DNA of 37,203 nt from a virus. Both the position numbers and the translations under genes were made by a program. The notes beneath the pieces are model-generated. The model had not been told where the DNA came from, did no database searches, and saw only the letters and a program-made list of their open reading frames with translations. Where the stretch lies: positions 1 to 37,203 of IMG/VR virus record IMGVR_UViG_3300042445_002511. One strand, written 5' to 3'. Shown here piece by piece: positions 2,494-32,000 of this stretch. Every line of letters begins with the position of its first letter. Positions within the stretch are counted from its first letter, which is position 1.

Positions 2494-5400
2494 TTATTTT
2501 AATAATTCTTGAATCCAAGCTGTTCTATTAATTGAATTTAAAGCTCTTTGATAATCTAGTATAATAGCACTACTTGCTCCTCTATTTTGAGTTTTAGTTA
2601 TTGCTGTTGCGTTATTAGTATAATCAATATCTTTATCTAATTCATTACCAAATATACCCTTATATTTACCTAATACTAGAATTCTAATAGATAGATTTTC
2701 ATCAAGTACACTATCTGGGTTATTAACTATATTAATTCTTGCTCCTTCTACGATTAAAAGATTTTGAATTTTTTTATAATTACCTTTAGATGTAATTTGT
2801 GTTAATCCTCTACCTCTATATTTATATCCATCTCCTACTTCATCATTACTTCCTCCGCTATAAACAAAATTTGCTGTAGATTCAGGATTTGAAAATATAT
2901 TTCTTATTTGTTGATCTGTTTTTCCTTTTGTTTTTGTTTTAAATATAGATTTAATTCTTGCTAATCCTTCTGGTGTATTTGCATTGTAACGTAAATTTTC
3001 TACTTTATTAGGAACTAATCCTGCTTCAGCTTGTGCTACAGTTAATATAGCTGTTAATTGTGATTTATCTGTTATTCCATAACTAAGAGATGTTTGTATA
3101 ATTTTTTCTACAATATCTCTATATGATTCAGGTATAGGATCTCCTTCATTAGTAGTGATACCACTCGCGTCATTTATAACATCATTTAAAAGAAATCTTG
3201 TTGGTTTATTTGTTGTTTTAGGTAATGATAAAGAGTCAATAGTTGTATTCCACATATTATTTTCAATAGTGTGGTTTACTCCTTTAATTATAAATACCAT
3301 TTCTCTATTATAATTAGAAGGTAAATAATTTGTATCAACTGTAAATTCTTGATAAATTTTCATTCCTGATAGGCCTGCCATAGTTAATGAAATATTAATA
3401 GGAATAAATCCAGTTGATGTAGTAGCTGATCCGGTCTGTTCATACATTAGTTGCTGACCATAAGAAATAAATGTATTTAAAACAGAACTATAAGAACTAA
3501 ATGCATTTGTATCCCAAACAGGTAATGCATTATTACCCATATTCATACTTTTAACAAATGTAATATAATCATTTACAGTAGTTTTATATTGATTATCAAG
3601 TGATGATGATGGTAAAAGATAAGGATCACCAATAAACTCAATTAATCTACTATTTAATCCTTTATTTAATCTAGATAATGCAGTAGCATCTTCTCCTACT
3701 ACTCTTTGACGTGCCGCGGCTCCAATAGTAATCATACTAGCAAATTGAGGTGTTAACTCAGTTTTCATAGTAAAATCTTTTATAAAACCTGCTGAGCCTG
3801 AGCCTTCAGATCTTAATGGATTATATCCATATAAATCAAACACAGATGATTCTGTATTTAAGTTACCAAGTCTAGCTAAAGCTAATGTTTCTTCACCAGC
3901 TACTCCTAATGGAACTTTTTTAGCTTCATTTATTTTATTATTAAAATAAGCTATTACTTCATCTTTTTTATATAATTTATTTTGATCTATAAAACGAAGT
4001 GTATTTGTATCTTCATCAATCACAGGAACTATATTATTAATACTACCTAAACAACTACCAATAGTTTGTCCTAATGATTTAAAAAAATCAACTAATGCTA
4101 TTTTAGAACTTGGTGCTGTTATTAATTCATCTAATTTATCTTTTATAAATTTAAAATTAACATAAACATTCATAAGATTTCCATATGTTTCTTCTTTAAT
4201 AGATACTTCAAATGGAGAAGCAGTTGGTATAATTTTAACATCATTAATTCCTACTGTTATGTCTTTTTTTACTAATATTTTACTTGGATCAGTACTTAAT
4301 TGAAAATCTAAACAATTTATTATATTAGTTTCAGAATTATAATCTATATTTAATATTTTATATTTTGAATTTCCTTGGTCAATAGTAGGTATAATACTTT
4401 GTTCAATTATTTTTAATAAAGCTCCTAATCGAATATAATAAGAAGGACTATCTTCAGTAGCACCTGACCAGGTTTGTTTTAACACATCTTGTAATTTGTT
4501 ATTACTTAATGATGTGGTAATTGATACACTATTAATATTTTTAGTTCCACTAGTAGCAGCATCCATTAGCCTTTTTAGAGTATCTAATATAGCATGAATA
4601 TTACTTTTATTACGTTCATTCACTATACTAGTAGGACTATAATCATCTCCTGCTGTTGCTGTTTCAATAGATGTTAAAACTTTTGTTGCTACTGTATTTG
4701 GGTCAGCTGTTAATATATTTACTTTAAGTGATTCAATAATATCTCCTACACTTCTAACTGTTAATACAATATTGTAACTTCCATCAGAATTAAAATTCCA
4801 ATTAAAATTAACTACTTTACCTAATATAGCATCATAATTACCATTACTATCATAACGAGCATTAACTATTTGACCTAAAAGTATATCTACATTAGGTGAA
4901 TCACTAAAAAACTCATTTTGTAATGATTTAGGTGTTGTTTGAGGTGTTCCTTTATTATCAAGATAAATAGTATGACCCCACTCTAATAACACATAAAAAC
5001 CTAAACGTAAATATAATGTATCAATTATTTCAAATTGAGATTTATCCCAACATTTAATATTAATAGTTGCTGTTTTTAATGAACCTATATTTTCACTTTT
5101 AATATTAGCTGATGTTATACCAGGCATTGGTCTTAAACCAAAACTATTTGAATCTGTTCCCCATCCATAAGAGTAATTATTAAAAACTGATGCTGTTGAA
5201 GGTTTTATTTTAGGTATACCTCCTTTTAAAGATCCTCCTAGTTCAGTTACACCAGCAAATAAAATAGCTTTTTTAGCTAATTCAGCTCCTGTTAAATTTA
5301 AAGTACCAATATATGGGTTATTAAGTTCTGCTGAGTTTTCAATGCTAACAGAAGACATTAATCTTACAAATGATGTAGAGGCATTAATATAATTAACAAA

Positions 5401-5508
5401 TTCTGGTGTTCTAGGGTTGTTAGAATTAAAACCAGAAGCTAAAGCTTTTTGACGAACTTTTATTTGATTAGTTATAGTAGGATGAAATCCTTCTCCTAGA
5501 ATATTCAT
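2494..5508 (-). CDS. baseplate hub protein fused to a C-terminal GH19 lysozyme/chitinase-like domain
   Basis: This 1004-residue protein is probably the central hub at the tail tip. The N-terminal third has the hub-like segment PMPGI (127-131), followed by a segment ending LLEWGHT (174-180) that recurs in phage hub proteins. From about residue 810 to the end it resembles a GH19 glycoside hydrolase, as in many phage endolysins. It has AQAEAGL with the candidate catalytic Glu828, then VENLRYNA, then GDGYKYRGRGLTQIT near 892. GH19 enzymes cleave beta-1,4 links in peptidoglycan or chitin, so the domain would open the cell wall during injection. The gene follows the LysM-like protein with a 1-base gap. 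The GH19 assignment is firm; the hub assignment rests on the motif and gene order. Confidence 0.82.
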   Translation of the reverse strand: MNILGEGFHPTITNQIKVRQKALASGFNSNNPRTPEFVNYINASTSFVRLMSSVSIENSAELNNPYIGTLNLTGAELAKKAILFAGVTELGGSLKGGIPKIKPSTASVFNNYSYGWGTDSNSFGLRPMPGITSANIKSENIGSLKTATINIKCWDKSQFEIIDTLYLRLGFYVLLEWGHTIYLDNKGTPQTTPKSLQNEFFSDSPNVDILLGQIVNARYDSNGNYDAILGKVVNFNWNFNSDGSYNIVLTVRSVGDIIESLKVNILTADPNTVATKVLTSIETATAGDDYSPTSIVNERNKSNIHAILDTLKRLMDAATSGTKNINSVSITTSLSNNKLQDVLKQTWSGATEDSPSYYIRLGALLKIIEQSIIPTIDQGNSKYKILNIDYNSETNIINCLDFQLSTDPSKILVKKDITVGINDVKIIPTASPFEVSIKEETYGNLMNVYVNFKFIKDKLDELITAPSSKIALVDFFKSLGQTIGSCLGSINNIVPVIDEDTNTLRFIDQNKLYKKDEVIAYFNNKINEAKKVPLGVAGEETLALARLGNLNTESSVFDLYGYNPLRSEGSGSAGFIKDFTMKTELTPQFASMITIGAAARQRVVGEDATALSRLNKGLNSRLIEFIGDPYLLPSSSLDNQYKTTVNDYITFVKSMNMGNNALPVWDTNAFSSYSSVLNTFISYGQQLMYEQTGSATTSTGFIPINISLTMAGLSGMKIYQEFTVDTNYLPSNYNREMVFIIKGVNHTIENNMWNTTIDSLSLPKTTNKPTRFLLNDVINDASGITTNEGDPIPESYRDIVEKIIQTSLSYGITDKSQLTAILTVAQAEAGLVPNKVENLRYNANTPEGLARIKSIFKTKTKGKTDQQIRNIFSNPESTANFVYSGGSNDEVGDGYKYRGRGLTQITSKGNYKKIQNLLIVEGARINIVNNPDSVLDENLSIRILVLGKYKGIFGNELDKDIDYTNNATAITKTQNRGASSAIILDYQRALNSINRTAWIQELLK

Positions 5509-8165: not shown

Positions 8166-10685
8166 TTATGTTGTTTTATAAGTACCCATTGAAACTGCTG
8201 TACCTAATCTAGTACTGTCTATATATATTACACCTTCTTTATTTAATATGTTGGTTAGTAATTTTTCTACAGCCATCATACGATCTACTAATGGTGTTAA
8301 GTTTATTTGAGATGTAGATGATGATCTTATATTTTTATCTAAAGGTGATTGGTTATTACCTTCTAAATTAGTGCCAGCTACAATAGTATCATTATCATTA
8401 AAAGAGTATGTTCCTTCAGGTGCTGATAGGACACGCTTACCATATCCTGGCGATACAGCGTCATCAGCTAAATATGATTTACCTATAGCATAAATTGATG
8501 CTGCTGCTGCTGCTGCTAATAAAGCCCCTACAACTGGTATACCTATTACAGTGTTCATAGCTTTTAAAGCTAAAGTTCCTAATACTGATTTACCTTCTTT
8601 TTTGGCAAATAATAATTTTATTTTATCATAAGCGATACTAATTAATGTTTCATTATTTACTTTTTTTATAGCTAAATAAGATAAAGTAAAAGCACCAGCT
8701 AATACATAAGCTACATCCTTAGCTTCAGTTAATAATCCAACTATATAACCTAAACCTTCACCTATTTTACCTAAAGTATATGTCACTGGTGTTAATATAA
8801 CATTAATTAAAGGTAATATGTTAGTAACTAAATTCATAAATGGAGATACTATTTGTAGTATAGGCTCGGCTAATGATACAAATAATTCTCTTAATTTTTC
8901 TATAGTGTTATTAAAACGCTCGGCTACTGATTGTTGTTGAAATTGTAATGCTAATTGATCATTACCTAAACGTTTTTTAGCTTCTTCTAAACTAGTTGAT
9001 TTAACTAATCTATCAAAAGCTTGTTTTGCTGTTTCTCCTTCTTCAGCTGATAATGCTGCTAATGCTTCTCTATCTATTAATGATTGAGCTAAGTCATCTC
9101 TAGTTAATCCAGCAGCATTTGCAATAGCTTCTTGTTGGATTCTGTTCATATTAGCAAAATCAGCAGATGTACCTACTTGTCTTGCTATTTCAGCGGCGGC
9201 TCCAATTGAGTCACCTTGTAATGCTAAATATCTAGCTTGTTCAAAATTTAAATCTTTACCAGTTAATAATTCAGCTTCTAATTCATTTGATATTGATTGT
9301 TCAAAATTTAATAATCCTGATGCTATTTTATCAGCTTGTTCTAAATTTAAACCAAATTGTTTTGATTTAACTACAGATTCAGCTAAAGCTGATGCTCCAC
9401 CTTTTAATGATAATTTAAGGGCTGCTGATGCTTTACTAACTTCTCGTAAAACATCTTTTTCATTAACTACTAATTTATTTTGAGCTGCATATGCTTCTGC
9501 TGCTCCTAATATTTCAGATGTATTATCTTCTAATGTTTTACCATTAACTAAAGATATTTTTTGAATACCTATTAATTCATCATTAGTATAACCTGCTTGT
9601 TCTCTTAATTTAGTAAAAGTAATTAAATCTTTTTCATTTAATACAGCATTAGAACCTAATGATTTACCAACAGCTATTACACTTTCATTTAATCCTCTAG
9701 TATTAACAGCGGCGTCAGCGGTTAAATTTGCTGTTTGAGTTAATTGAGTATTTAATGTTAAAGCTTCTCTATAACTCATATTAAAGGCTTTAGCAGTATC
9801 ACCTGCTAATTTGTCTGTACCTTTAAGAGCTTCTACTAACTCTTTTGTTAAAAGTGATAATGGATCTTTAAATGATTCTAATAATTGAGCTCCTGCTTCT
9901 TTGATTCCTACTTTTAATACTTTAAATTTATTAACAAAACTATTAACATATTTAGGATCTTTTTCAAGTTGTTCAGCGAATTCTCGCATTTTTTCATTAA
10001 CTTTATCTAAACCTAAAGCATTCGCTAAACCTCCAAGACCTAATTTATCTAAAGCAGTTTGGACACCACTAACAGCAGCGCCTCCTATACCCATTAATTT
10101 GCTAATTCTTTCTTCTTGTTTAATTCGAATATTAGCTTTATCAATAATAGTGTTTATACTAGAATCTTCATCTTTTAAAAAATTAACAGCTGACTTTTGT
10201 GATTCAGTAAGATTTTTAAAAATTGATGTTCTTCTATCTATTTTTTCATTGATGCCAGCTTCTTGTAATATTTGAGTAGCTGCTAATTTAGTTTCAGATT
10301 GGTATTTTAATATTTTTTCTTTATGCTGTTCTAATTGTTTTTTAGATAATTTATTGATGCCTTCTTCTTCATATTTAAGATTTTTAGCTTCTTTAATTAT
10401 ATTTTTAAAACCATTAGAAAACTCTTTAGTTGAACTTACAGCTTTTGGATCAATTTCTTTAACTATTGCTTTTAAAGTTGTTGAAAGATCACTAAATGAA
10501 GATTTTGTATTTTCTACACGATATTGAACACCTTCTAAAGCTGTTTCTAATTGCTGGATAGTTGTTTCAGCATTTTTAATATTAGTAACATCCCAGTCCT
10601 TAAATGGATTTCGGTCGCCTAGTGCTTTATAAGCTTTCTCTATTCGTCCTAAAAGTTTTTCTATATCTTCTTTACTAGTCGCCAT
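8166..10685 (-). CDS. tail tape measure protein, 839 residues
   Basis: This is the ruler and scaffold for tail length. The protein has a long helical, Lys/Glu-rich N-terminal half (about 1-270) and a long Ala/Leu/Asn-rich helical middle. Hydrophobic segments follow at about 580-670 and 715-734 (GIPVVGALLAAAAAASIYAI), as in membrane-active tape measures. A C-terminal patch then reads SPGYGKRVLSAPEGTYSFND. It lies right after the chaperone gene and before the baseplate genes, the standard place for a tape measure. At roughly 0.15 nm per residue the tail would be about 125 nm long; this is an estimate from the family rule. An ATATTTATA box lies 13 bases before the start. No muralytic domain is visible, in line with the GH19 domain being on the hub. 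Confidence 0.88.
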   Translation of the reverse strand: MATSKEDIEKLLGRIEKAYKALGDRNPFKDWDVTNIKNAETTIQQLETALEGVQYRVENTKSSFSDLSTTLKAIVKEIDPKAVSSTKEFSNGFKNIIKEAKNLKYEEEGINKLSKKQLEQHKEKILKYQSETKLAATQILQEAGINEKIDRRTSIFKNLTESQKSAVNFLKDEDSSINTIIDKANIRIKQEERISKLMGIGGAAVSGVQTALDKLGLGGLANALGLDKVNEKMREFAEQLEKDPKYVNSFVNKFKVLKVGIKEAGAQLLESFKDPLSLLTKELVEALKGTDKLAGDTAKAFNMSYREALTLNTQLTQTANLTADAAVNTRGLNESVIAVGKSLGSNAVLNEKDLITFTKLREQAGYTNDELIGIQKISLVNGKTLEDNTSEILGAAEAYAAQNKLVVNEKDVLREVSKASAALKLSLKGGASALAESVVKSKQFGLNLEQADKIASGLLNFEQSISNELEAELLTGKDLNFEQARYLALQGDSIGAAAEIARQVGTSADFANMNRIQQEAIANAAGLTRDDLAQSLIDREALAALSAEEGETAKQAFDRLVKSTSLEEAKKRLGNDQLALQFQQQSVAERFNNTIEKLRELFVSLAEPILQIVSPFMNLVTNILPLINVILTPVTYTLGKIGEGLGYIVGLLTEAKDVAYVLAGAFTLSYLAIKKVNNETLISIAYDKIKLLFAKKEGKSVLGTLALKAMNTVIGIPVVGALLAAAAAASIYAIGKSYLADDAVSPGYGKRVLSAPEGTYSFNDNDTIVAGTNLEGNNQSPLDKNIRSSSTSQINLTPLVDRMMAVEKLLTNILNKEGVIYIDSTRLGTAVSMGTYKTT

Positions 10686-10716: not shown

Positions 10717-11010
10717 CTATTTTTTAGATGCCCTTGTATGATAAGTTGGTGTATTTGATTGTTGTAATTTTTGTTTAGCTGATTTAACATCAGCAAAATC
10801 TATTTTATTAGGATCTGATTTTGTAGATTTTGAATATGCTTCTGATTCTTGTTGTTTTTGATCTGCTATAAAATTATATGTAGCCTGTCTTAACCATATT
10901 GGCATATTATATACAGTTTCATGATCATAACCACCATTTCCATAATAACATATATCATGGATGGTTTTAAATAGATATGATCTATAACTCAGAGTCAGGC
11001 CAAAAAAAGT
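10717..11010 (-). CDS. out-of-frame extension of the tail chaperone gene (probable programmed frameshift product, GT-like)
   Basis: A 62-residue open frame with an ATG at 10905 sits here, but the same frame stays open far upstream of that ATG. It runs back through the stop of the gp26-like gene to a TAA at 11011-11013. Between that TAA and the ATG at 10905 there is no ATG, GTG or TTG in frame. The upstream part is not random-looking: it reads IHDICYYGNGGYDHETVYN and leads into MPIWLRQATYNFIADQ. The frame is +1 (equivalently -2) relative to the gp26-like gene, and the overlap contains T7 at 11008-11002. A shift there would append about 95 residues to the upstream protein. The position, just before the tape measure, is where tail chaperones such as lambda G/GT and the Mu pair use frameshifting. 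The C-terminus is Lys/Gln/Ser rich. Independent translation from 10905 remains possible. Confidence 0.72.
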   Translation of the reverse strand, partial: TFFGLTLSYRSYLFKTIHDICYYGNGGYDHETVYNMPIWLRQATYNFIADQKQQESEAYSKSTKSDPNKIDFADVKSAKQKLQQSNTPTYHTRASKK

Positions 11011-11719
11011 TTAAATTAATTGGAATAGTGACCTCCGTACCACCATCTAAAACATATTTTAAATCTACGTCAGGTTGAACTTGTTTAATATAATCTCTTA
11101 ATGATCTAGAATCTCTAGCCAATAAATAATTATCTACAAATTCTCTAATTGTTTGTTCTTCTCTATCACCATTAACTGATGTAATAATATATTTTAAACG
11201 AGTAGATAATTCAGGTGAATTTTCTTTGTTAATTTTTTTAAGACCTTCTAATTCTTTATCAATTTTCTTTTCGTCAGCTGATGTTAATATTTTAAATGTA
11301 ATTTTAGTACCTAAATGAGGTAAAGTATATGAAAATTCATTAACTCCTTTAGTGATTAAAGATTCATCAAATGGTTTATTATCTAATGATGATAAATCTA
11401 CAGTATGTGATTGTCCATCATATTCAAATGTGTAATTACCTCCGTAACCTAAAATACGAGCAGCTATAAATAAAGCGTTTTTATCACCAATAATTAAATC
11501 ATCATAATTAATTTTAGTAATAATTAATGATTGAAGCATTTTATCTAAAACTGTACCTTGTTTGATATAATTCTGGTTAGTTAAAATATCTTCTTCTTTC
11601 GCCGTCATATATTTCATTTCGATTTTACCGCTTGATAACGGGTTATCTTCAGAATATAGCAAGCCTTTTGATGGTAGTTCTACCGTTTCTGTTGGGAATT
11701 TGTGTTTATTGTCTTCCAT
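10982..11719 (-). CDS. T4 gp26-like protein, probable tail assembly chaperone
   Basis: This 245-residue protein begins MEDNKHKFPTETVELPSKG and has the pattern ELPSKGLLYS...GKIEMKYMTAKEEDIL. I associate that pattern with the T4 gp26/gp51 baseplate family of T4-like phages. It is mixed alpha/beta, highly charged and soluble, with no membrane segment. It ends NFFWPDSEL, and the codons for Phe-Phe form a T7 run only 20 bases before its TAG. The gene lies between the tail tube and the tape measure, the classic chaperone position. Together with the downstream out-of-frame coding stretch, it is best read as the short form of a frameshifted chaperone pair. An ATATTTATA box and a terminator lie upstream, so it starts a new transcription unit. 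The T4 gp26 name is a family memory and not a computed match. Confidence 0.75.
   Translation of the reverse strand: MEDNKHKFPTETVELPSKGLLYSEDNPLSSGKIEMKYMTAKEEDILTNQNYIKQGTVLDKMLQSLIITKINYDDLIIGDKNALFIAARILGYGGNYTFEYDGQSHTVDLSSLDNKPFDESLITKGVNEFSYTLPHLGTKITFKILTSADEKKIDKELEGLKKINKENSPELSTRLKYIITSVNGDREEQTIREFVDNYLLARDSRSLRDYIKQVQPDVDLKYVLDGGTEVTIPINLNFFWPDSEL
11002..11008 (-). other. T7 slippery run, candidate +1/-2 frameshift site
   Basis: The coding strand reads AAC TTT TTT TGG CCT in the gp26-like frame. The window in which a shift can rescue the downstream frame is only 29 bases (11010 to 10982), and this run lies within it. A +1 or -2 slip keeps Phe codons paired. A -1 slip would hit TGA two codons later. 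Transcript slippage on the same run is an alternative. Confidence 0.6.
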
Positions 11720-11825: not shown

Positions 11826-12314
11826 TTAGAAATTTAATACACAATAATCTGGTTGTACTGTCATTGTGATGTTTTGAGCCGCTGACTCATTATCCCAACT
11901 GTAATCACCAAAGTTTATGTCTGTAATTAAAGCACCAACAATGATCCATTCTGAAACGATATCACCTACTGGTCCTAATACGTTTAATGTTAAGTCTTTC
12001 TTGTAGAAATCACTGTAACCATCTCTACCAGTTACTGATTCGTGATGTAAACGTAGCCATTCCATTACTGCCTGAGCTCCTGAAGGAGTGATTGGATCAA
12101 ATAATGTCATTTGAATAGCACCCCATTTAGTTTTACCTTTCACAAAACGTTGAACGTTAATATGATTTAAAACCACTGTATCTTGAGTTAATGACACTGC
12201 ATTTACGCCTTTTACAATAAATGCTGGTATACCAGTCATGCTTAATAAAAAGCGGTTTTGCTGTTTTGGCTCAAATTGGGTGAAAAATATATCGTTTGAA
12301 TTTACAATTGCCAT
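11826..12314 (-). CDS. tail tube protein (gp19-like), 162 residues
   Basis: This is the inner tube subunit of the contractile tail. Its length matches T4 gp19 (163 residues). Visible family-type features are an N-terminal F-x-Q-F-x-x-K-x-x-N-R-F segment, WGAIQMTLFDPITPSGAQAV, a WLRLHHE helix, LTLNVLGPVGDIVSEWIIVGALI, and a closing NITMTVQPDYCVLNF. These give the beta-barrel pattern shared by tube proteins and Hcp. It directly follows the sheath gene with a 56-base gap containing an ATATTTATA box, and a strong terminator follows it. Only one tube-like gene is evident in the window. Confidence 0.9.
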   Translation of the reverse strand: MAIVNSNDIFFTQFEPKQQNRFLLSMTGIPAFIVKGVNAVSLTQDTVVLNHINVQRFVKGKTKWGAIQMTLFDPITPSGAQAVMEWLRLHHESVTGRDGYSDFYKKDLTLNVLGPVGDIVSEWIIVGALITDINFGDYSWDNESAAQNITMTVQPDYCVLNF

Positions 12315-12370: not shown

Positions 12371-14080
12371 TTACGCTGGGAAAGTTGCTCCTGTAGGTAA
12401 GATATTGAAATCTAAGTAAATAAATTCAGCTGTTCTTGTTGGTTGAATATAAATCTGACCAATTAATTGATTTCTGTCAATTACGTCTGCTGTATTATTT
12501 GTATCATCCATAATTACTCTAAATGCATATAAACCTTGTCTTTGTTGAACTGATGTTAAATATGGATTTACTTGTGATAAGAATGCGTTTCTAGTTGCTA
12601 ATGTATTTTGTTCAAACACTAATGTGTTAGCAATTTGTGAAATGTAGTTCTTAAGAGCAATTAATAATCTTCTAACATTTACTCTATCTAAAGCTGACGC
12701 TTGAGTTTGTAATGTTTTCTGACCATATACTACTGTACCTGTTCCAGGGAATGTAGCAATAGGATTTACTTTGTTTGTATATAAAGTATCTCTACTTGAT
12801 TGAGGTAATTTTTGAGCTGCTCTAATTACTTGTAATCCACCTCTGTTAATACCAGCTGGTGCAAACCAAGGCTCAGAAACTGAATCATTGAATGCGTAAA
12901 CACCACCTATTACTGTTGAAGCTGGAACCCAAACATTTTTACCAGTTGATGAGTCAAGTACTTGAACCCAAGGCCAATATGTTGCTGCATATGATGTATT
13001 TATTGAGTTAGCTACTGAAGTTACAGTTGATAAAGTTTGTGTACTATATCCAACTAAATCTACTACATATAAACTATCACCACGTGTTTGTGTGTTAGTA
13101 ACAATAGTATTACATTGTGTAGCATGAAAATCTTTAATCAAACCTGGAGTTAAGATAATATTGAATTTGTAATCATCTTGATTAGCTAATAAGTCAATCA
13201 TATTATCATAACTAGTTCCTACTAATCCTTGAGTATCTGTAGCATCAATTTGATCATAGAATTTAGCTCCGGCTTTAATAGTACCTGTAGCTCCTGTGAA
13301 TGAACCACTAGCGTTAACTGGGATCGATCCTGTAAATTGTGTTTTAGCAACTCCTGTATTATCAAAATAGTTTGGTGTTAAATTATTAACCGCACTTACA
13401 TATACATAACGTGATCCATTAAAATATGAACCTGATGTTTCGATTTGATTAGTTGTTGGGTTATAATTTTGTACTTGATCGCCAATTACTCTTGAAATAA
13501 AGTTAGATGCAAATGGGTCTAATGATAAGTTAGTGAAAGTTTCTAATACAGTTTGATTATTTGTATTATCATTTCCTTGACGAATTAATAAGCTAAATGT
13601 ACCTGATGATGTATCAGAATTTAATATTTGCCATCTAACGTTATTTTCTGTACCAGAAGTTAATGAACCGCTTAAATCTAAACTAGATGAGCTATTCATG
13701 ATAGTACCTTTAGATATTGTATTTAATACAATAGTTGCTGAACCTGTAGCTCCGATACTTCCAATAGTTGTACTTGTTGCTACTGACCAATCAGCACTTT
13801 TACTTACTACTCTAGCTACTAATAATGAAGTACCATTGTTGTTAAAGTAATTAAATGCCGCTTGTGAAGTAAGATAAGCGTAACTATCACTACCACTTTG
13901 AAATGCTCCTCCAAATTTATTTAAATAATCACTATATGAAGTAACAATAGTTGGAATTTCGATAGGACCTAAAACTGTAGGACCTATAATTGCTGCACCT
14001 ACTGAAACTGGTTGCTGTCTGATAAACGATGAATCGTTTTCTCTTGCTAATACACCAGGGGAAATTAATGTTTCTGCCAT
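12371..14080 (-). CDS. tail sheath protein (gp18-like), 569 residues
   Basis: This is the contractile outer sheath subunit. It opens MAETLISPGVLARENDSSF, the extended N-terminal arm of sheath proteins, followed by VSVGAAIIGPTVLGP and an SYSDYLNKFG segment typical of the family. The C-terminal region has VNPIATFPGTGTVVYGQKTL, a long helix containing NVRRLLIALKNYI, and a closing FIYLDFNILPTGATFPA. The middle, about 120-300, is variable and Ser/Thr rich, as expected of surface-exposed domains. It is somewhat shorter than T4 gp18 (659 residues). It has its own ATATTTATA box upstream and the tube gene directly downstream, so the tail shaft genes form one unit ending at the terminator near 11780. 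Confidence 0.93.
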   Translation of the reverse strand: MAETLISPGVLARENDSSFIRQQPVSVGAAIIGPTVLGPIEIPTIVTSYSDYLNKFGGAFQSGSDSYAYLTSQAAFNYFNNNGTSLLVARVVSKSADWSVATSTTIGSIGATGSATIVLNTISKGTIMNSSSSLDLSGSLTSGTENNVRWQILNSDTSSGTFSLLIRQGNDNTNNQTVLETFTNLSLDPFASNFISRVIGDQVQNYNPTTNQIETSGSYFNGSRYVYVSAVNNLTPNYFDNTGVAKTQFTGSIPVNASGSFTGATGTIKAGAKFYDQIDATDTQGLVGTSYDNMIDLLANQDDYKFNIILTPGLIKDFHATQCNTIVTNTQTRGDSLYVVDLVGYSTQTLSTVTSVANSINTSYAATYWPWVQVLDSSTGKNVWVPASTVIGGVYAFNDSVSEPWFAPAGINRGGLQVIRAAQKLPQSSRDTLYTNKVNPIATFPGTGTVVYGQKTLQTQASALDRVNVRRLLIALKNYISQIANTLVFEQNTLATRNAFLSQVNPYLTSVQQRQGLYAFRVIMDDTNNTADVIDRNQLIGQIYIQPTRTAEFIYLDFNILPTGATFPA

Positions 14081-14408: not shown

Positions 14409-17400
14409 TTATCCTGTAGATACATTTACTGTTGTACTAATTGAATATATTATACCTTGTACTTCTGTATTAAACCAAATTGTTTGAGGACTTGTTATGC
14501 TTCCATTTATACGTACAGCAAAGTCACTATTTGCATTTGTTACTGCGTGATTAATTGAACCTGAATTTGATATAGGTACAATATTACTACCTGAAACTAT
14601 AGTATATGTAGGATTAAAATCTCCAATACCGCTTAATGTTGATGCTGATCCTGTTTCTGCAAGACTAGTCCACCAATGTATTAATTGTTGTGGTCGTGTT
14701 AACGCAGAACCATCTACATCTTTAAAATCAGCTATAAATGATTTATTATTTCCTGATGAAACTACTGATAAACTACAACTTACAAAATTATATGTTGAAA
14801 GTCCTATAATATTTCCTGTTACTGTTAATGAACCTGAAACTATTTGACTTCCTGTCACTACTAATGAACCTGTAACTATAGTATTACCATTTACATCTAC
14901 TGTTGCATTTGGGGTTGCTGTTTTACCAAATGCTACTTGACTTCCTGTAGCATATAGTTGAACATTACCTAATCCATCTGATAAAACTACTGTAGAGGTT
15001 AAAGCAGTTGTTCCAGCATATTTACCTATAATAGTATTATAATTCCCTGTTGTTATAGATTCTCCAGATCCAGATCCTATAAGAGTATTACTACCACCTG
15101 TAGTTAATAAATCACCGGCAAAAGATCCTACCGCTGTATTGTAAGCTCCGGATGATATTGAATATAATGCTTGGTATCCTATAGCGGTATTTGCATCTCC
15201 AGTATTATTAGCAATTGTAAGACTACCGTTTAAAGCTTCAACTCCTACAGCTGTATTATTGCTAGATGTCATATTATACATCGATTCAAATCCTATAGAA
15301 GTATTATTACTTTTATTTCGTGAGATAAATAAAGCTCTATGTCCTACTGAAGTGTTATTATCACCATTAATGTTATAAGGTAAAGTTTCATACCCTAAAG
15401 CTGTATTATTAACACCTATAGTATTATCACGTAAAGTAATAGCTCCTAAAGCTGTATTTCTACTTCCTGTTGTAGTATTTTGTAAAGTAAAAAGTCCTAC
15501 TGCTGTGTTGAATTGTCCTGTAGTAATCATATTCATAGAACCACTACCTACCATTGTATTTCCAGGTATATTAGAATTTCCTAAACCTATTTTTATAGTA
15601 CTAACTGTTAAAATATTACCATCAAATATTAAATTAGAATTTCCGGCGGCGATATTAGATGAATTTTTATAAACTACCTGATTTGCTGAACCTGCTACAG
15701 GACCTGTTGCCCCTGATAAACCTGAGGTACCTGATAGACCTGAAGTGCCTGATAAGCCTGAAAGACCTGATGTACCTGATAAACCTGATGTACCTGATGC
15801 TCCAGCTTCACCCATAGGTCCAAAACCTACATTAGTAAATCCTTCATTAGATGTACTATAATCTGAAATGAAATATAATGGATTTCCTATTGATCTAGCT
15901 GTTGTATGTCTTAATGTATTATTTTGATAATATCTTACATTATAACCATCATAAGTTATATAAAATTTATCACTTAAACTATAGGTTCCAGTATATTGTA
16001 CATTGGTTAATTCAGTAATAGTAAATTGATTACCACTTGCTTCAAATTGGAAACTAAAGTCTATTAAAGTCGGATCTTCTGGCGTTCCAGATATGGTTTC
16101 TATTAAGCCAAAAACTACAGCTATATTGTCATTTGTTGTTTGGGCAGTAGTGTAAACTCCTCTTGCATATCCTTGAGTTGAATATACATAAGCGTCATAA
16201 CTGCTACCACCTCCACCTGTGTTTATAAATGTTGATGAATTAGTTCCATAAGAAGTATTTGAAAATACAGGAGTAAAAATTGGAGTTCCTATAAGACCAG
16301 ATAAACCTGAGGTACCTGATAGACCTGATTCACCTGAAAGACCTGATAAACCTGAAGTTCCGCTTAAGCCTGAAAAACCTGACAAACCTGAAGCGCCGCT
16401 TAAGCCTGAAAAACCTGACAAACCTGATGTACCTGAAAGGCCTGAAGTACCTGAAAGACCTGATGTACCTGATAAACCTGATGTACCGCTTAAGCCTGAA
16501 AAACCTGATAAGCCGGATAAACCTGAAGTACCTGATAAACCAGATTCACCTGAAAGACCTGATAAACCTGATGTACCGCTTAAACCTGAAAAACCTGACA
16601 AACCTGATGTACCTGAAAGACCAGATTCACCTGAAAGACCACTTGTGCCTGATAAGCCTGATAAACCTGATGTACCTGATAAGCCTGAAAAACCTGATAA
16701 GCCAGATAAACCTGATGTACCTGAAAGGCCTGAAAGACCTGATGTACCTGAAAGTCCTGATAAACCAGAAGCTCCTGATAGGCCTGACGCGCCTGAAAGA
16801 CCTGATGTGCCTGAGAGACCTGATGTGCCTGAGAGACCTGATGTGCCTGATAAACCTGAAAGTCCTGAAGTGCCTGAAAGACCTGATGTGCCACTTAAAC
16901 CTGAAAGACCAGATGTACCTGAAAGACCAGATAAACCTGATGCACCCGATAAACCTGAAGTTCCACTTAGGCCGGATAAGCCTGAAGCACCGCTTAAGCC
17001 TGATGCGCCTGATAAGCCTGAAGTTCCGCTTAGGCCTGAAAGGCCTGAAGTGCCACTTAGACCTGAAAGACCTGATGTGCCACTTAAGCCTGAAGTGCCA
17101 CTTAAGCCTGATAAGCCTGAAGTTCCGCTTAGGCCTGAAAGGCCTGAAGTGCCACTTAAACCTGATAGACCAGATGTGCCGCTTAGACCTGATGCTCCTG
17201 AAAGACCTGATGCTCCTGAAAGACCAGATGAGCCTGTTAAACTTAAATCAGTTCTATAGACTATATCTCCTAAATTATTAGAGACTAATATTCTTGTTTC
17301 AGTTGTGCCGGCCGCTAAAGTAGGTAAAGCTAAACTTCCTAAAAGGGAAGTACTTCCTGTAACTTGAAAACTACCTGATATTTTAGTAGTTCCTATTAAT

Positions 17401-18860
17401 GTTTGAATATCATTAGTAGCATCACCAAACTGGTTAGAACCAGATGAATAAATCACAGATGAAGTTTCATATATTGTTGTTAAATATGTTATACTACCTG
17501 TTCCGTTAACTGTTAAATTTCCAGTTACTGATAATGTTGTTCCGTCATAAGTGAAATTAGAAGAACCTGCTGGATTATTAGATCCGTCTTTGTAAACTAC
17601 TTGATTTGCTGAACCCGCTATAGGACCTGTTGCTCCTGATAAACCTGAAGTGCCACTTAAGCCTGATGTACCTGAAAGACCTGATAAGCCTGAGGTGCCA
17701 CTTAAGCCTGATAAACCTGATGTACCACTTAGGCCTGATAAACCTGAAGTACCACTTAAACCAGATGTGCCACTTAGACCTGAAAGACCTGAAGTGCCAC
17801 TTAAACCTGAAAGACCTGAAGTTCCGCTTAGGCCTGAAGTACCGGATAAACCTGATGTTCCATTTAAACCTGAAAGACCTGAAGTTCCGCTTAAACCTGA
17901 TAGACCTGAAGTTCCGCTTAGGCCTGAAAGGCCTGAAGTACCACTTAAACCAGATGTACCTGAGAGACCTGAAGTTCCGCTTAAACCTGATAGACCTGAA
18001 GTACCTGAAAGACCTGATGCGCCTGATAAACCTGAGGTGCCACTTATGCCTGATGTACCTGATAAGCCTGATAAGCCTGATGTACCTGATAAGCCTGATA
18101 AGCCTGATGTACCTGATAAGCCTGAGAGACCTGAAGTACCGCTTAAGCCTGATAAGCCTGATGTACCTGAGAGACCTGATGTGCCTGATAAACCTGAAGT
18201 GCCATTTAAGCCTGAAAGACCTGATGTACCGCTTAAACCTGATAGACCTGATGTACCTGAAGTGCCACTTAGACCTGAGAGACCAGATGTACCGCTTAAG
18301 CCTGATAAACCTGAGGTGCCGCTTAAGCCTGACAGACCTGAAGTACCGCTTAAACCTGATGTGCCTGAAAGACCTGATAAGCCTGAGGTACCACTTAAGC
18401 CTGAGAGACCTGATGTGCCTGAAAGACCTGATGTACCACTTAAGCCTGATAAACCTGAAGTGCCACTTAAGCCTGATGTACCTGAAAGACCAGATAAACC
18501 AGAAGTACCGCTTAGGCCTGAAAGACCAGAGGTGCCGCTTAATCCTGAAGCTCCTGAAGCTCCTGAAACTGTAGGTGTAATAGCAAATGAAGCTGTTAAT
18601 GCATATGAAGCTGATGTAGCTGTAAGCGCGTAAGAAGCTGTAGTAGATGTAAATGAATTTCCTGCGTAAGATGCAGTACCAGTAAATGAGGGAGCAGTAA
18701 TATTGCCTGTTACATCTAATGGACCAATAACATTTAATGAACCACTTATAGTTATATCATAAGCTGAATTACCTGTTAAGGCATCAATTGATTGAGAAAC
18801 TTGTTGAGCTTGTACGGTTGCACCTGTTGTTATGCCCGCATTAGACAGTACTTGAGCCAT
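14409..18860 (-). CDS. giant collagen-like tail fibre with YadA-head-like repeats, 1483 residues
   Basis: This is a probable trimeric virion fibre. A short N-terminal region (about 1-95) has [20 protein letters not shown] and ASYA-type repeats. It is followed by a Gly-X-Ser tract of about 310 residues, a beta-repeat spacer, a second tract of similar length, a unique globular insert (about 855-1015), and a short third tract. Next comes a YadA-head-like left-handed beta-roll region with repeats such as [20 protein letters not shown] (about 1090-1300), then a C-terminal beta domain ending [14 protein letters not shown]. The tracts have Gly at every third place, Leu, Thr, Ala, Phe or Glu after it, and nearly always Ser third, with no proline. 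The gene lies after a terminator and an ATATTTATA box. The receptor is unknown. Confidence 0.85.
15709..15805 (-). repeat. short collagen-like Gly-X-Ser tract, third block of the 1483-residue fibre
   Basis: About 30 residues of GLS/GTS triplets, encoded by imperfect 9-base units. It separates the globular insert from the YadA-like repeat region. Confidence 0.85.
16296..17235 (-). repeat. collagen-like Gly-X-Ser tract, second block of the 1483-residue fibre
   Basis: About 313 residues of Gly-X-Ser triplets with more varied X residues than the other tracts (Leu, Thr, Ala, Phe, Glu). At the DNA level, 9-, 18- and 27-base units vary by synonymous codons (TCA or AGT for Ser, TTA or CTT for Leu). 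The complementary strand gives long proline-rich open frames that are not genes. Confidence 0.9.
17227..17300 (-). repeat. 74-bp direct repeat shared between fibre genes, copy 1
   Basis: By eye it is identical to 30317-30390 and differs at five positions from 32306-32379. It encodes the junction between a beta spacer ([20 protein letters not shown]) and a collagen-like tract. The next 29 bases (17302-17330) match 32381-32409 instead of the 30391 region, so the unit is mosaic. Confidence 0.88.
17630..18570 (-). repeat. collagen-like Gly-X-Ser tract, first block of the 1483-residue fibre
   Basis: About 313 residues, mostly the nine-residue pattern GTSGLSGLS, with rare Ala, Asn or Ile changes. 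It is framed by an N-terminal ASYA-type region and the spacer starting [18 protein letters not shown]. Confidence 0.9.
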
Positions 18861-22868: not shown

Positions 22869-25580
22869 TTATTTAGTTTTAAGTTGTTCTTCTAGATTAT
22901 TTACTTTATTAGTTAATTCTTTAATAGCTTCAATTAATAAAGGAACTAGTTTTTCATATTTGACAGCTTTATATCCACTGTCTCTAGTAGTAACTACTTC
23001 GGGTAGTATAGATTCAATTTCTTGAGCTATAATTCCTACATCTTTACCTTCAAAACCATGTAATATAGTTAAATCAGGATCTGGTTTCCAATCAAATGTA
23101 TTACCAGATATTAAATTTACTTTATATAAAGCGTTTTCTATAGGTTGTATATTTTCTTTTAAACGAATGTCTGAGGTTGAGAATGCTACTACATCATTTG
23201 AAGCATCAAATCTACCTACAGTTGCACTAGCTCCTATTCCACCAATAGCTAATGAACCCGACATTGTAGTTCTACTTCCAGTAGCGTAAAATTTAATATT
23301 TCCTGATCCATCTGTTAAGACTACAGTTGATGTTAAACTTAATGATGATGAGAAGCCTCCTATAATTGTATTATTACTACCTACAACATTATAACCTGCG
23401 TCTTTTCCTATGAATATATTATTAACTCCAGCTATATTATTATACCCTGCTCTGTATCCTATATTTATACTATAATTAGCACTATTTATAGAAAAACCAG
23501 CAGTAGTTCCAATAGAAATAGTATGAATGCCCGTTTTCATATCATAGGCAGTTTGGTATCCTAGAGCTACATTATTATTAGCTGTGTTAGTAGCAGCACC
23601 TGCTGGATTTCCTCTCATTGCTTGATATCCTAAAGCACAGTTATATTGAGCTGATGTGTTAGTAAAATAATAATGAGAAGTGTATCCAAATCCTAAATTA
23701 GCTTGGCCTGATGAAAGTTGCCCACATTGTGTTCCAAAGTAAGTATTATAGTTAGCAGTAGTGAGGGAGTTTGCACCAGCAGCAAATCCAAAAATAACAT
23801 TACCTATACCAGAAGTGATAGCAGCTCCCGCTAAGTTACCGTAAACTGTATTTCTTATAGCTCCCGTAGTTGTAGCTTGTAAGGAACCACTTCCTATAGC
23901 AGCTGATGTTGAGTCATTAAGTAATCCTTTCCATATCCATACTGTATCTATATCTAATCTTTTTCTTAAAGGATTTATGTTTATAGATGCATTATCTAAT
24001 GGGGCTGTTGCGCCTGTTGAAGCCGCAGTAAATGTTAAAAATCTATTAGCATCAGTATTATCTACAGCTACTGTTATAGTTGCCGGGGCCGCTCCTGATA
24101 AACCTGAGGTGCCTGAAAGTCCTGAAAGACCAGATGTGCCTGATAAGCCTGATAAGCCTGAGGTACCACTTAGACCTGATGTTCCTGAAAGACCGGATAA
24201 ACCTGAAGTACCACTTAAGCCTGAAAGTCCTGAAGTTCCACTTAGACCTGATAAGCCTGAAGTTCCACTTAATCCTGAAAGGCCTGAAGTACCTGAAAGA
24301 CCTGATAGACCTGAAGTGCCACTTAAGCCTGATAAACCGGATGTGCCTGATAAACCAGATAAACCTGATGTACCTGATAAACCTGAAAGACCAGATGTAC
24401 CACTTAGACCTGAAAGACCAGATGTACCTGATAAGCCTGATAAACCTGAAGTACCACTTAGACCTGATGCTCCTGATAGGCCTGATGTACCTGAAAGACC
24501 TGATAATCCTGATGCTCCTGATAATCCTGATGCTCCTGATAAGCCTGATGTACCTGAAAGACCTGATAATCCTGATGCTCCTGATAAGCCTGATGTACCT
24601 GATAAGCCTGATGTACCTGAAAGACCTGATAATCCTGATGCTCCTGAAAGTCCTGAAGTACCTGATAAGCCTGATGTACCTGAAAGACCTGATAATCCTG
24701 ATGCTCCTGAAAGTCCTGAAGTACCTGAAAGTCCTGATAAACCAGAAGTACCGCTTAGGCCTGAAAGACCAGATGTACCACTTAAGCCTGAAAGTCCTGA
24801 AGTACCTGAAAGTCCTGATAAACCTGAAGTACCGCTTAGGCCTGAAAGACCAGATGTACCACTTAAGCCTGAAAGTCCTGAAGTACCTGAAAGTCCTGAT
24901 AAACCTGAAGTTCCACTTAGACCTGAAGTACCTGATAAACCAGATGTACCACTTAAACCAGATAGGCCTGATGTACCTGATAAGCCTGAAAGGCCTGAAG
25001 TACCGCTTAAACCAGATAAACCTGATGTACCTGATAAACCTGAAAGTCCTGAAGTGCCACTTAAACCAGATAGACCTGATGTACCTGAAAGTCCTGATAA
25101 ACCAGAAGTACCACTTAAACCTGATGCTCCTGAAAGACCAGATGCACCTGACGGTCCAGCTAATGTATTATATCCTAAAGTTTTAGTTGATGTATTATAA
25201 GTTACAGCTACTGTATCTGAGGTAGAAGGCAAAGTAATAGCTTTAATTGATCCACTTAATTGGATTGAGTTATCACTACCTGAAATTACAATAGGTTCTG
25301 CTCCGTATTTACCTAAGAAAACTGAGTTGTTAGCATTAGCTTGTATCACTGGTAAACCAGCAATTGTATTTACTGAAAATAAAACTCCTGATAAATCATC
25401 GTCTACTGAAAATAAAGTACCTTGGTTACCATTCACAGTAAAGATATTGGTTCTACCTGTAGAACCTGAGCCATATAATACCAATGAACCTGAAGCTCCT
25501 TGAGTGATATTTTCAATATATCCTAATGAGCTTGTAAAGCCCATTATACTCGAGGCTGGTGTTATTCTAATATCTGCCAT
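22869..25580 (-). CDS. collagen-like tail fibre with C-terminal S74 self-cleaving chaperone domain, 903 residues
   Basis: This is a trimeric fibre type. The N-terminal region (about 1-140) has ITPASSIMGFTSSLGYI and beta repeats. It is followed by a Gly-X-Ser tract of about 355 residues, a YadA-head-like roll (about 560-760), and a peptidase S74 domain starting near 795. The domain shows STSDIRLKEN with Ser803 and Lys808 at the spacing of the Ser-Lys dyad, then GFEGKDVGIIAQEIESILPE and KYEKLVPLLIEAIKEL. In this family the domain helps the fibre trimerise and then cuts itself off before the serine, so the mature fibre would be about 802 residues. The DNA of the collagen-like tract shares a 122-bp identical stretch with the 1374-residue fibre. 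Confidence 0.88.
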   Translation of the reverse strand: MADIRITPASSIMGFTSSLGYIENITQGASGSLVLYGSGSTGRTNIFTVNGNQGTLFSVDDDLSGVLFSVNTIAGLPVIQANANNSVFLGKYGAEPIVISGSDNSIQLSGSIKAITLPSTSDTVAVTYNTSTKTLGYNTLAGPSGASGLSGASGLSGTSGLSGLSGTSGLSGLSGTSGLSGLSGTSGLSGLSGTSGLSGLSGTSGLSGLSGTSGLSGTSGLSGTSGLSGLSGTSGLSGLSGTSGLSGLSGTSGLSGLSGTSGLSGLSGTSGLSGLSGTSGLSGLSGTSGLSGASGLSGLSGTSGLSGTSGLSGASGLSGLSGTSGLSGTSGLSGASGLSGLSGTSGLSGASGLSGASGLSGLSGTSGLSGASGLSGTSGLSGLSGTSGLSGLSGTSGLSGLSGTSGLSGLSGTSGLSGLSGTSGLSGLSGTSGLSGLSGTSGLSGLSGTSGLSGLSGTSGLSGLSGTSGLSGTSGLSGLSGTSGLSGLSGTSGLSGAAPATITVAVDNTDANRFLTFTAASTGATAPLDNASININPLRKRLDIDTVWIWKGLLNDSTSAAIGSGSLQATTTGAIRNTVYGNLAGAAITSGIGNVIFGFAAGANSLTTANYNTYFGTQCGQLSSGQANLGFGYTSHYYFTNTSAQYNCALGYQAMRGNPAGAATNTANNNVALGYQTAYDMKTGIHTISIGTTAGFSINSANYSINIGYRAGYNNIAGVNNIFIGKDAGYNVVGSNNTIIGGFSSSLSLTSTVVLTDGSGNIKFYATGSRTTMSGSLAIGGIGASATVGRFDASNDVVAFSTSDIRLKENIQPIENALYKVNLISGNTFDWKPDPDLTILHGFEGKDVGIIAQEIESILPEVVTTRDSGYKAVKYEKLVPLLIEAIKELTNKVNNLEEQLKTK
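24095..25160 (-). repeat. collagen-like Gly-X-Ser tract of the 903-residue fibre
   Basis: About 355 residues of Gly-X-Ser, mostly GTSGLSGLS units with occasional Ala. It is bounded by [14 protein letters not shown]-type starts and GLSGAAPATITV at the end. Confidence 0.92.
24526..24647 (-). repeat. 122-bp exact repeat shared with the 1374-residue fibre, copy 1
   Basis: By eye it is identical to 32060-32181 over its full length, inside collagen-like tracts of two different genes. The identity extends over synonymous positions, so it reflects recent DNA exchange. Confidence 0.85.
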
Positions 25581-29046: not shown

Positions 29047-32000
29047 TTAAATCTCCTTATCAAATTCTGTAACTAATTTATCTATATCTTTTCTTTCTGC
29101 AAATATTGAATAGTAGCAATCTAATGTATCACCTTTATATCCTAAAGTAACTCCATATTCATTAACTTCTTTAATCCAAATTTCTTGGAATTGACCTATA
29201 GGCGTTATACTTACTGTTAAAGTGTCCTTGTGAATTAATGCGTACCAATAGTTAGGTAACGTTATATAATCGGTGTTTATAAGTCTACCACGAATATAAA
29301 CCGAGTGTTCCGGTCCTTCTAAAACACCATATTGTAATCTTTTACCTAGTTGGGTAGGGTGATCAATTATGAATGATTTAACAGTTGCTGTTAAGGTTCC
29401 ATTAACATTTAATGTTGAACCATCAAAGGTTAAATTAGCTGAACCTGCGGGATTATTAGATCCGTCTTTGTAAACTACTTGATTTGCTGAACCGGCTACT
29501 GGGCCTGTAGCTCCTGATATACCTGAAGTTCCTGAAAGACCAGATGTGCCACTTAAACCAGATGTGCCTGATAAACCTGATGTACCGCTTAGGCCTGATG
29601 TGCCGGATAAACCTGATAAACCTGATGTACCACTTAAGCCACTTGTTCCTGATAAACCTGATGTACCGCTTAAACCTGAAAGTCCTGAAGTACCACTTAG
29701 ACCTGAAAGACCTGAAGTACCACTTAGACCTGAGAGACCAGATGTGCCACTTAAGCCTGAAAGTCCTGAAGTACCACTTAGGCCGGATAAACCAGAAGTG
29801 CCACTTAAACCTGAAAGTCCTGAAGTACCTGAAAGTCCTGAAGTTCCACTTAAACCAGATAGACCTGAAGTACCACTTAGGCCTGATAAGCCTGATGTAC
29901 CGGATAGACCGGATAAACCAGAAGTGCCGCTTAAACCTGATAAGCCTGATGTACCTGATAAACCTGAAAGACCTGATGTACCTGAAAGGCCGGATAAACC
30001 TGATGTACCATTTAAGCCTGAAAGGCCTGAAGTGCCACTTAAGCCTGATGTACCTGAAAGACCTGATAAGCCTGAGGTACCACTTAAGCCTGATAAACCA
30101 GATGTACCTGAAAGACCTGATGTACCACTTAAGCCTGAAAGGCCTGAAGTGCCACTTAGACCTGAAAGACCAGATGTACCACTTAAGCCTGAAGTACCTG
30201 ATAAACCTGATGTACCACTTAAGCCTGAAAGGCCTGAAGTACCGCTTAGACCAGATAAACCTGATGTACCTGAGAGGCCTGAAGCTCCACTTAATCCTGA
30301 TGCTCCAGATAAACCTGATGAGCCTGTTAAACTTAAATCAGTTCTATAGACTATATCTCCTAAATTATTAGAGACTAATATTCTTGTTTCTGTTGTTCCT
30401 ATATTTAAAGCAGGTAGAGCAAAACTTCCTGAAAGTGAAGTACTTCCTGAAACTTGGAAACTACCAGTAACAGAAGTAGCTGTTCTTAATGACCAAGTAC
30501 TAGCATCATGTTGTGCTCTAATATTACCTTGACTATCAGCTATAATAACATTATTTGATAAACCTGCGGTTAAACCAATAACATTAGCTCCTAAAATTGT
30601 ATTATATCGTCCTGTAGTAATACCTCTACCTGAATCGTATCCAATAGCTACATTATTATCTCCTGTAGTTACATCACGTAAAGCTTGAGTACCTACTGCA
30701 GTATTATTACTTGCTGATGTTTGGGAAAATAAAGTATCATATCCTACACCAACATTATAACTACCTGATGTACTTGTTAGTAATGCTCTATTACCATTTG
30801 CTGTGTTGTAACTACCAATACTATTATTACTTAATGATGAATCACCTACTGCGTTATTTCTTGTTCCTGTTGTATTTCTTTGTAAAGCAGAAGCTCCAAG
30901 AGCTAAGTTTCTATCTCCAGTATTAAAAATAGTTGTAGCACCTTGCATTGCTCCATTACCAATAGCAATATTATATAGTCCTCCTTGTTGATTATATAAA
31001 GCACTACCACCTATAGCTATACTTCCAGTAACAGCTGATCCTGTTGTTAAATACATAGTAGCATATCCTATTGCTGTTGAATCTCTAACACCAGTAGATA
31101 ATCCTAAAGCAAAAGCACCCACTGCTACTGTATTTCTAGAGGTTCCAATTAATGATGGATATGCACCAGCTCCAAATATTTCATTTGATGTTGCTGCGTT
31201 AGGTCCAGGATTTGTTATACTTCCTGATATAATAACAGAACCTGTTACTTGTAAACTACCTGTTACTTTAGAAGTACCAATTAATAATTGAACATCATCA
31301 GTAGCGTCTCCAAACTGGTTAGAACCAGATGAGTAAATTACAGACGCTGTTTCGTATATTGTATTTAAATAAGTTATACTACCTGTTCCGTTAACCGCTA
31401 AGTTACCAATTACAGTTAATGTAGTTCCATCATAAGTGAAGTTACTTGAACCTGCTGGATTGTTAGAACCATCCTTATAGACTACTTGATTAGCTGAACC
31501 TGCTACTGGACCTGTTGCTCCTGATAAACCTGAAGTTCCTGATAGACCTGAAGTACCACTTAAGCCACTTGTTCCTGAAAGACCAGATGTACCTGATAAA
31601 CCAGATAAGCCTGAAGTACCGCTTAAACCTGATAGACCTGAGGCGCCGCTTAGGCCTGAAGTTCCTGAGAGACCCGATGTACCACTTAAACCTGAAAGAC
31701 CAGATGTGCCACTTAGACCTGAAAGACCAGATGTACCACTTAAGCCTGAAGTTCCACTTAAGCCTGAAGTACCTGATAAACCAGATGTACCTGAGAGACC
31801 TGAAAGACCAGATGTACCACTTAAGCCTGAAAGTCCTGATGTACCTGATAAACCAGATAAGCCGGATGTACCGCTTAAGCCTGATAATCCTGAAGTGCCA
31901 CTTAAGCCTGATAAACCTGATGCTCCTGATAGGCCGGATGCACCTGAGAGACCAGATGTACCGGAAAGTCCGGATGTACCGCTTAGGCCTGATGTACCTG

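Follow-up and report, generated by a model that had tools for sequence, protein, structure and literature searches.

Probable programmed +1 frameshifting in the tail assembly chaperone gene of a largely uncultured clade of phages

The gene of a gp26-like tail assembly chaperone (TAC) in the viral DNA analyzed here (hereafter the window, 37,203 nt in length) very probably gives rise to two proteins, TAC-N and TAC-NC, from one mRNA by programmed +1 frameshifting, as suggested by comparison with related sequences. The two-frame layout and the site at which the frames can be joined are conserved in relatives, the +1 frame is coding, and a choice of base is observed before the run of T in the site. 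Frameshifting of TAC genes is already known, and the +1 variant proposed here runs opposite to the -1 shift of related phages.

Two overlapping frames immediately precede the tape measure gene, a gene layout of the G/GT type (Table 1). The coordinates of the 0-frame gp26-like ORF of 245 residues ending at 10982, given in the original prediction, were confirmed, as were those of the +1 (equal to -2) frame, open from after the TAA ending at 11011 to 10717, with ATG 10905 as the first ATG, GTG or TTG. The T7 run at 11008-11002, the peptide quoted from the +1 frame and the 29-base stretch in which a shift is possible were also given correctly, and -1 slippage indeed ends at once, with a stop after two codons (TTG GCC TGA). 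The 3' end of the TAC-N ORF reads AAC TTT TTT TGG CCT GAC TCT GAG TTA TAG, where TAG occupies positions 10984-10982, the P-site TTT corresponds to 11005-11003 and the A-site TGG to 11002-11000. Runs of T7 are commonplace in the window (22 found vs. 32.7 expected from shuffling), so the run in the window by itself is weak proof of a shift site, and it is the relatives that carry weight.

Table 1. Features of the TAC locus and adjoining tail genes in the window.
Feature	Coordinates	Strand	Remarks
TAC-N, gp26-like tail assembly chaperone, 0-frame product, 245 aa	10982..11719	minus	ORF
TAC-C, 94-codon +1-frame C-terminal domain	10717..11001	minus	GLTLSYRS...RASKK; TAA 10719-10717
Shift site C-TTT-TTT-TGG-CCT (preceding base, T7, GGCCT)	10997..11009	minus	
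62-residue stub ORF, what gene callers would report	10717..10905	minus	ATG at 10905
Tail tape measure gene, directly downstream of the TAC locus	8166..10685	minus	match to Flavobacterium phage immuto
Tail tube gene, directly upstream of TAC-N	11826..12314	minus	phrog_4542 tail tube, E 6e-24
Tail sheath gene	12371..14080	minus	E 3e-167 to annotated immuto sheath

The tape measure gene showed 29% identity to the annotated tape measure of immuto (580 columns, E 8e-53), and the tail tube gene 57% identity to the immuto gene in the same place, annotated there as 'tail completion protein'. Elsewhere in the window, the minus strand encodes three very long proteins (14409-18860, 22869-25580 and 29047-33171) in which GLSGTSG-type repeats predominate and which are probably fibres of the virion; long ORFs on the strand opposite these genes are probably spurious. 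In a protein of 1004 aa (2494-5508, minus strand), residues 799-977 form an endolysin-like domain (phrog_181, E 5e-17), and the protein may be a hub component that includes a lysozyme-like region.

The tail chaperone identity proposed for the gene holds, TAC-N belonging to the same family as T4 gp26 and gp51. All three match phrog_150 (baseplate hub), with E-values of 4e-10 for TAC-N of the window, 7e-71 for gp26 and 3e-84 for gp51. In T4 the family is represented by two genes, and gp51 covers 45 more positions of the phrog_150 profile. No match above the cut-off was found in Pfam for TAC-N or TAC-C, and a sequence search of the PDB with profiles of TAC-N and TAC-C, the latter profile including two faulty rows, gave nothing significant. 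The AF2 model of TAC-N has a pLDDT of 90.8. Foldseek comparison of this model with the PDB found nothing at E 0.001, with the HK97 TAC ranked second (E 0.8) behind an unrelated lipocalin. When 709 of the PDB chains from this comparison were re-aligned, the best two were 3klu (YqbN, presumably a tail assembly chaperone; Z 5.0) and 2ob9 (HK97 TAC; Z 4.7), modest scores against the usually trusted value of 8. Viral models matching TAC-N included those of SP-15 and of several T4-like baseplate hub proteins.

In IMG/VR, 428 relatives of the 0-frame protein were found, and 80 of them were kept; the C domain is in the +1 frame in all 81 loci of the window and this kept part. The set was widened with queries from more distant members, at most 80 loci being kept per query, and comprised 215 sequences, 212 with a TAC-N ORF, represented at 95% protein identity by 125 sequences. 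Among the 212, 199 have the C domain in +1 and three have it in frame 2, and in ten it was undetected; in frame 0 it was found in none of the 212 sequences or 125 representatives. The representatives include 115 with the +1 layout, two with the C domain in frame 2 (split genes) and eight without a match to TAC-C. Reading of these eight by eye assigned LIS04, GXN1, RM378 and SP-15 to +1, and Atu_ph07, PA5oct, RAS14 and LR756511 to -1. The hidden C-terminal extension of the original prediction is thus borne out by 115 of the 125 representatives, and the +1 layout is common to the isolates immuto, Mel-JY01, RM378, SP-15, LIS04 and GXN1. In immuto the site reads TTT CTT TGG. Homologues with stops between the frames or without a slippery run had been named in advance as grounds for refutation; the comparison was carried out and did not refute the extension. 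One locus, L145, had been taken as -1 in a first pass by longest frame; this assignment was rejected, as homology placed its C domain in +1. Locus L122 has no stop within its contig. Scans with the SP-15 and RM378 proteins returned only matches at 100% identity. In Rhodothermus phage RM378 (L187), where TTT TTT TGG and the +1 layout are kept, the adjoining tube gene is annotated on the opposite strand.

A sequencing or assembly error in the homopolymer would leave what is seen in the window, a single-base difference of run length in a viral contig, but its probability is negligible, the same layout being present in contigs with an identical protein and in isolates. Three viral contigs with an identical gp26 protein (L001-L003) have the same T7 junction, which makes an assembly error unlikely. 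The exact 15-mer TTTTTTTGGCCTGAC was found in IMG/VR at no fewer than 120 loci, and at 118 of the 120 listed it is preceded by TAC-N in frame 0, with TAC-C in +1; in L327 TAC-N is present and the contig ends 9 bases past the motif, and L313 carries the motif by chance, within the T-tail of a terminator-like hairpin. This signature marks a coding region that is missed or shortened in the public annotations of immuto (L081), SP-15 (L188), LIS04 (L084) and GXN1 (L085), which contain either no gene there or a stub of about 36-39 aa.

Whether the +1 frame is coding was assessed by pN/pS in 80 ungapped sequences (508 pairs) over codons 10-32 after the slip, the 24 or so codons that immediately precede the stub Met. 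The values were 0.16 for the +1 frame and 1.8-2.0 for the other two; the +1 frame before its first ATG is under purifying selection, in agreement with the coding character ascribed to the region before 10905. In the next stretch examined, of 45 codons, the +1 frame is free of stops in all 115 representatives, five contigs ending inside it, and the other two frames contain stops in 115 and 106 representatives.

Production of TAC-C as a separate small protein, from its own start or by reinitiation, is highly unlikely. It would agree with the stubs annotated in immuto and SP-15, with the presence of the stub's initial Met in 94 of 112 representatives, and with TAC-C behind its own ATG in L177 and L182, but the conserved codons before the Met would then be lost. 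Moreover, the position of the first start codon in the +1 frame varies between -37 and +36 codons relative to the slip, two representatives have no start in this frame before its stop, and L184 has none before the contig end. The Met of the stub is replaced by Leu in 14 and by Phe in four of the 112 representatives; since it is replaced in 18 and the preceding codons are conserved as protein, the 62-residue stub starting at 10905 is probably not all that is made, and it is unlikely to be an independent gene. The common stub Met may provide an extra internal product. As to L177 and L182, their site is degraded, their frame is changed and their position is within the +1 clade, so that they look like a later replacement. 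In both, the C domain is encoded separately, immediately behind the stop of TAC-N, from an ATG of its own and with a new N-terminal stretch, and in the tree described below they are placed beside TTTCTTTGG members with SH-aLRT 88-99. With the slip site degraded, these sequences look like a natural loss of frameshifting.

The shift site was located by a rule, CCT after TGG, TAC, TTC or TAT, which was satisfied in 115 of 115 representatives with the +1 layout. TTT TTT TGG CCT is present in 97 of them. The codon before the P site is TTT (107), TTC (five) or CTT (three), the P site is TTT (109), CTT (five) or CTA (one), and the A site is TGG (110), TAC (three) or TTC (two). The next codon is CCT in all 115, its conservation being in part a consequence of the reading of both frames at this point. 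The allowed shift windows of the relatives intersect at -5 to +12 nt from the start of the P codon, which confines the shift to TTT TTT TGG CCT and upholds the T run as its site. Phe at the P site is encoded by TTT in 109 of 109 cases, vs. 78% of Phe in the same genes (log10 P -14.2, if the representatives are independent); after clustering at 60% identity this bias is weak (13 of 13, log10 P -1.2).

A run of T7, present in most members, could also allow RNA polymerase to slip and drop one U, and the fusion would then be formed by ordinary translation. The chance of this is very remote, as members with TTCTTTTGG (longest run T4) and with TTTCTTTGG (longest run T3) keep the +1 layout. Slippage of the ribosome with single-base +1 re-pairing fits 114 of the 115 representatives; in L083 (TTT CTA TTC CCT) it fits only with a slip one codon earlier.

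The original prediction had proposed a +1 or -2 event; the frame shared by the two stood, and the direction is most likely +1. In a -2 slip, two bases would be read twice and one extra Phe inserted (NFFFGLTL), and re-pairing is permitted alike in both directions at 104 of the 115 sites (97 TTT TTT TGG, three CTT TTT TGG, three TTT TTT TAC and one TTT TTT TTC). The five TTT CTT TGG sites, where both are possible through a first-base G-U pair, do not discriminate. Five representatives with TTC TTT TGG, however, would lose middle-base pairing in a -2 slip, and GXN1 (TTC TTT CGT) likewise mispairs, if the slip occurs at that TTT. Since TTC TTT TGG fits +1 and not -2, +1 is the sole rule fitting all sites, and the -2 slip is considered unlikely.

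The base preceding the T run deviates strongly from the expectation by codon usage in the 115 representatives: T was found in two vs. 64.4 expected, A in five vs. 23.4, C in 82 vs. 21.6 and G in 26 vs. 5.6, so that G or C precedes the run in 108 vs. about 27 expected. Both cases of T occur in GGT TTC TTT TGG, which lacks a T7 run. After clustering at 60% identity, T is found in none of 15 vs. 9.1 expected (P 2e-7). Against a stricter background, the codons preceding TTT in the same genes, which end in T in 156 of 819 (19%) and in G or C in 233 of 819 (28%), the deficit of T is smaller and the excess of G and C stands. At neighbouring codons the effect is much weaker, with G or C likewise above expectation. 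T in this position would complete the -1 heptamer T_TTT_TTT, which G or C before the run breaks; avoidance of this heptamer does not explain the avoidance of A. Among members with the C domain in -1, T precedes the run in 12 of 13, the exception being L224, and the site of L189 is uncertain.

According to the proposed mechanism, most ribosomes would stop at the TAG of the 0 frame and release TAC-N, and a fraction would slip one base forward with tRNA-Phe on the second UUU of UUU UUU UGG. The tRNA would re-pair with the overlapping UUU, and GGC would be taken in place of UGG, a putative slow codon; the TAC and TTC variants of the A site indicate that UGG is not essential. Translation would then continue in +1 to the end of TAC-C with the junction NFFGLTL, and the fusion, TAC-NC, reads as a predicted protein of 333 aa, close to the 330 or so residues originally proposed. 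For the window phage, the predicted tryptic junction peptide of the +1 product is YVLDGGTEVTIPINLNFFGLTLSYR, an extra Phe being the mark of the -2 form. In the CUU variants, the P-site tRNA-Leu would slip forward over U, similar to RF2 (UUU/CUU_U). By analogy with lambda gpG/gpGT, TAC-N may coat the tape measure and the C domain may recruit the tail tube subunit. An SD-like element was found in 9.6% of the representatives, within the 0 to 68% of controls further upstream, and RNA structure up- or downstream of the site in the 115 representatives (mean z -0.42 to -0.61 vs. control -0.34) showed no clear excess; thus no stimulator was found.

The C domain is in -1 in Syn9, S-PM2, S-SRM01, Citrobacter Ci1, Astolliot, YB07, KVP40, Vibrio K367 and Rhizobium IC12, with the site T TTT TTC in eight of the nine and CTT TTC in Vibrio K367. 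The profile of +1 TAC-C matched that of -1 TAC-C with a probability of 89 (P 2e-6, hhalign), and the -1 profile matched residues 202-245 of gp51 with a probability of 49 (P 2e-4); the direct hhalign comparison of the +1 TAC-C profile with T4 gp51 gave no match. A quick tree was built from 61 TAC-N proteins, comprising 40 of the 115 +1 representatives, four +1 isolates, 13 with -1, two split and the two T4 proteins. It shows no fewer than six changes of mode, its deep branches being long and uncertain.

This single family includes the -1 and +1 layouts as well as duplicated genes and a split gene, and these four modes make a change of direction or the loss of a recoding signal traceable and testable. 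We are somewhat inclined to the view that one chaperone family shifts in both directions, -1 in cyanophages and other T4-like phages and +1 in a large, largely uncultured clade, with a few bases deciding between them and neither an SD element nor RNA structure needed. T before TTTTTC would allow -1, and G or C before TTTTTTTGG would forbid it. The ribosomes of Flavobacterium make little use of SD pairing, and a +1 site working without an SD element or RNA structure would suit such hosts. For the ribosomes of Bacteroidota, the site is a candidate for a natural +1 site; an excerpt of PMC12421855 describes the RF2 site as working poorly in F. johnsoniae. No report of this +1 TAC site was found in the literature searched, a search that did not extend to the 2022 study of T4-like TACs. 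T4 is named as the exception to tail-chaperone frameshifting in an excerpt of a 2016 review (PMC5009743).

The closest known system is the T4-like TAC pair (gp26/gp51) and not Mu. TAC genes are frameshifted in some T4-like groups, and in T4 the TAC was reportedly described by Vladimirov, Gautam and Davidson in 2022 as duplicated, in the form of gp26 and gp51. T4-like TACs share with the window the family, a similar gene neighbourhood, the corresponding Phe-Phe position and, in the -1 members, a homologous C domain. They differ in the site, since the nine -1 members mostly have T TTT TTC, and the clade of the window is predicted to shift +1 on S-TTT-TTT-TGG-CCT, the base before the run being mostly other than T (T in 2 of 115). 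Excerpts of PMC12846349 and PMC10885494, which cite the 2022 study, mention -1 polyT sites for T4-like phages and also T4-like phages whose short and long forms have a gene each.

The likeness to lambda G/GT and Mu is one of layout, a short and a long chaperone being encoded by one gene just before the tape measure. The TAC shift of Mu is -2. In lambda G/GT, according to an excerpt of PMC5009743, it is -1, unlike the +1 here, and the TAC of the archaeal virus HSTV-2 is called there 'very likely +1'. HSTV-2, likened here by description alone, resembles the window in having a probable +1 TAC shift in a myovirus and differs in its archaeal host.

The RF2 gene (prfB) has the +1 site CUU_UGA_C (excerpt of PMC12421855), with CUU_U as the standard and UUU_U as a minority form (excerpts of PMC5009743 and PMC12421855). 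As in RF2, the site of the window has CUU or UUU in the P site followed by U, with a slip of one base forward, and such a P site (CUU_U or UUU_U) was found in 114 of the 115 representatives. In RF2 the A site holds the stop UGA, whereas in the clade of the window it holds a sense codon, and the SD-like element and release factor autoregulation of RF2 are both absent from the site described here. The replacement of UUU_U by CUU_U in five representatives echoes the RF2 site.
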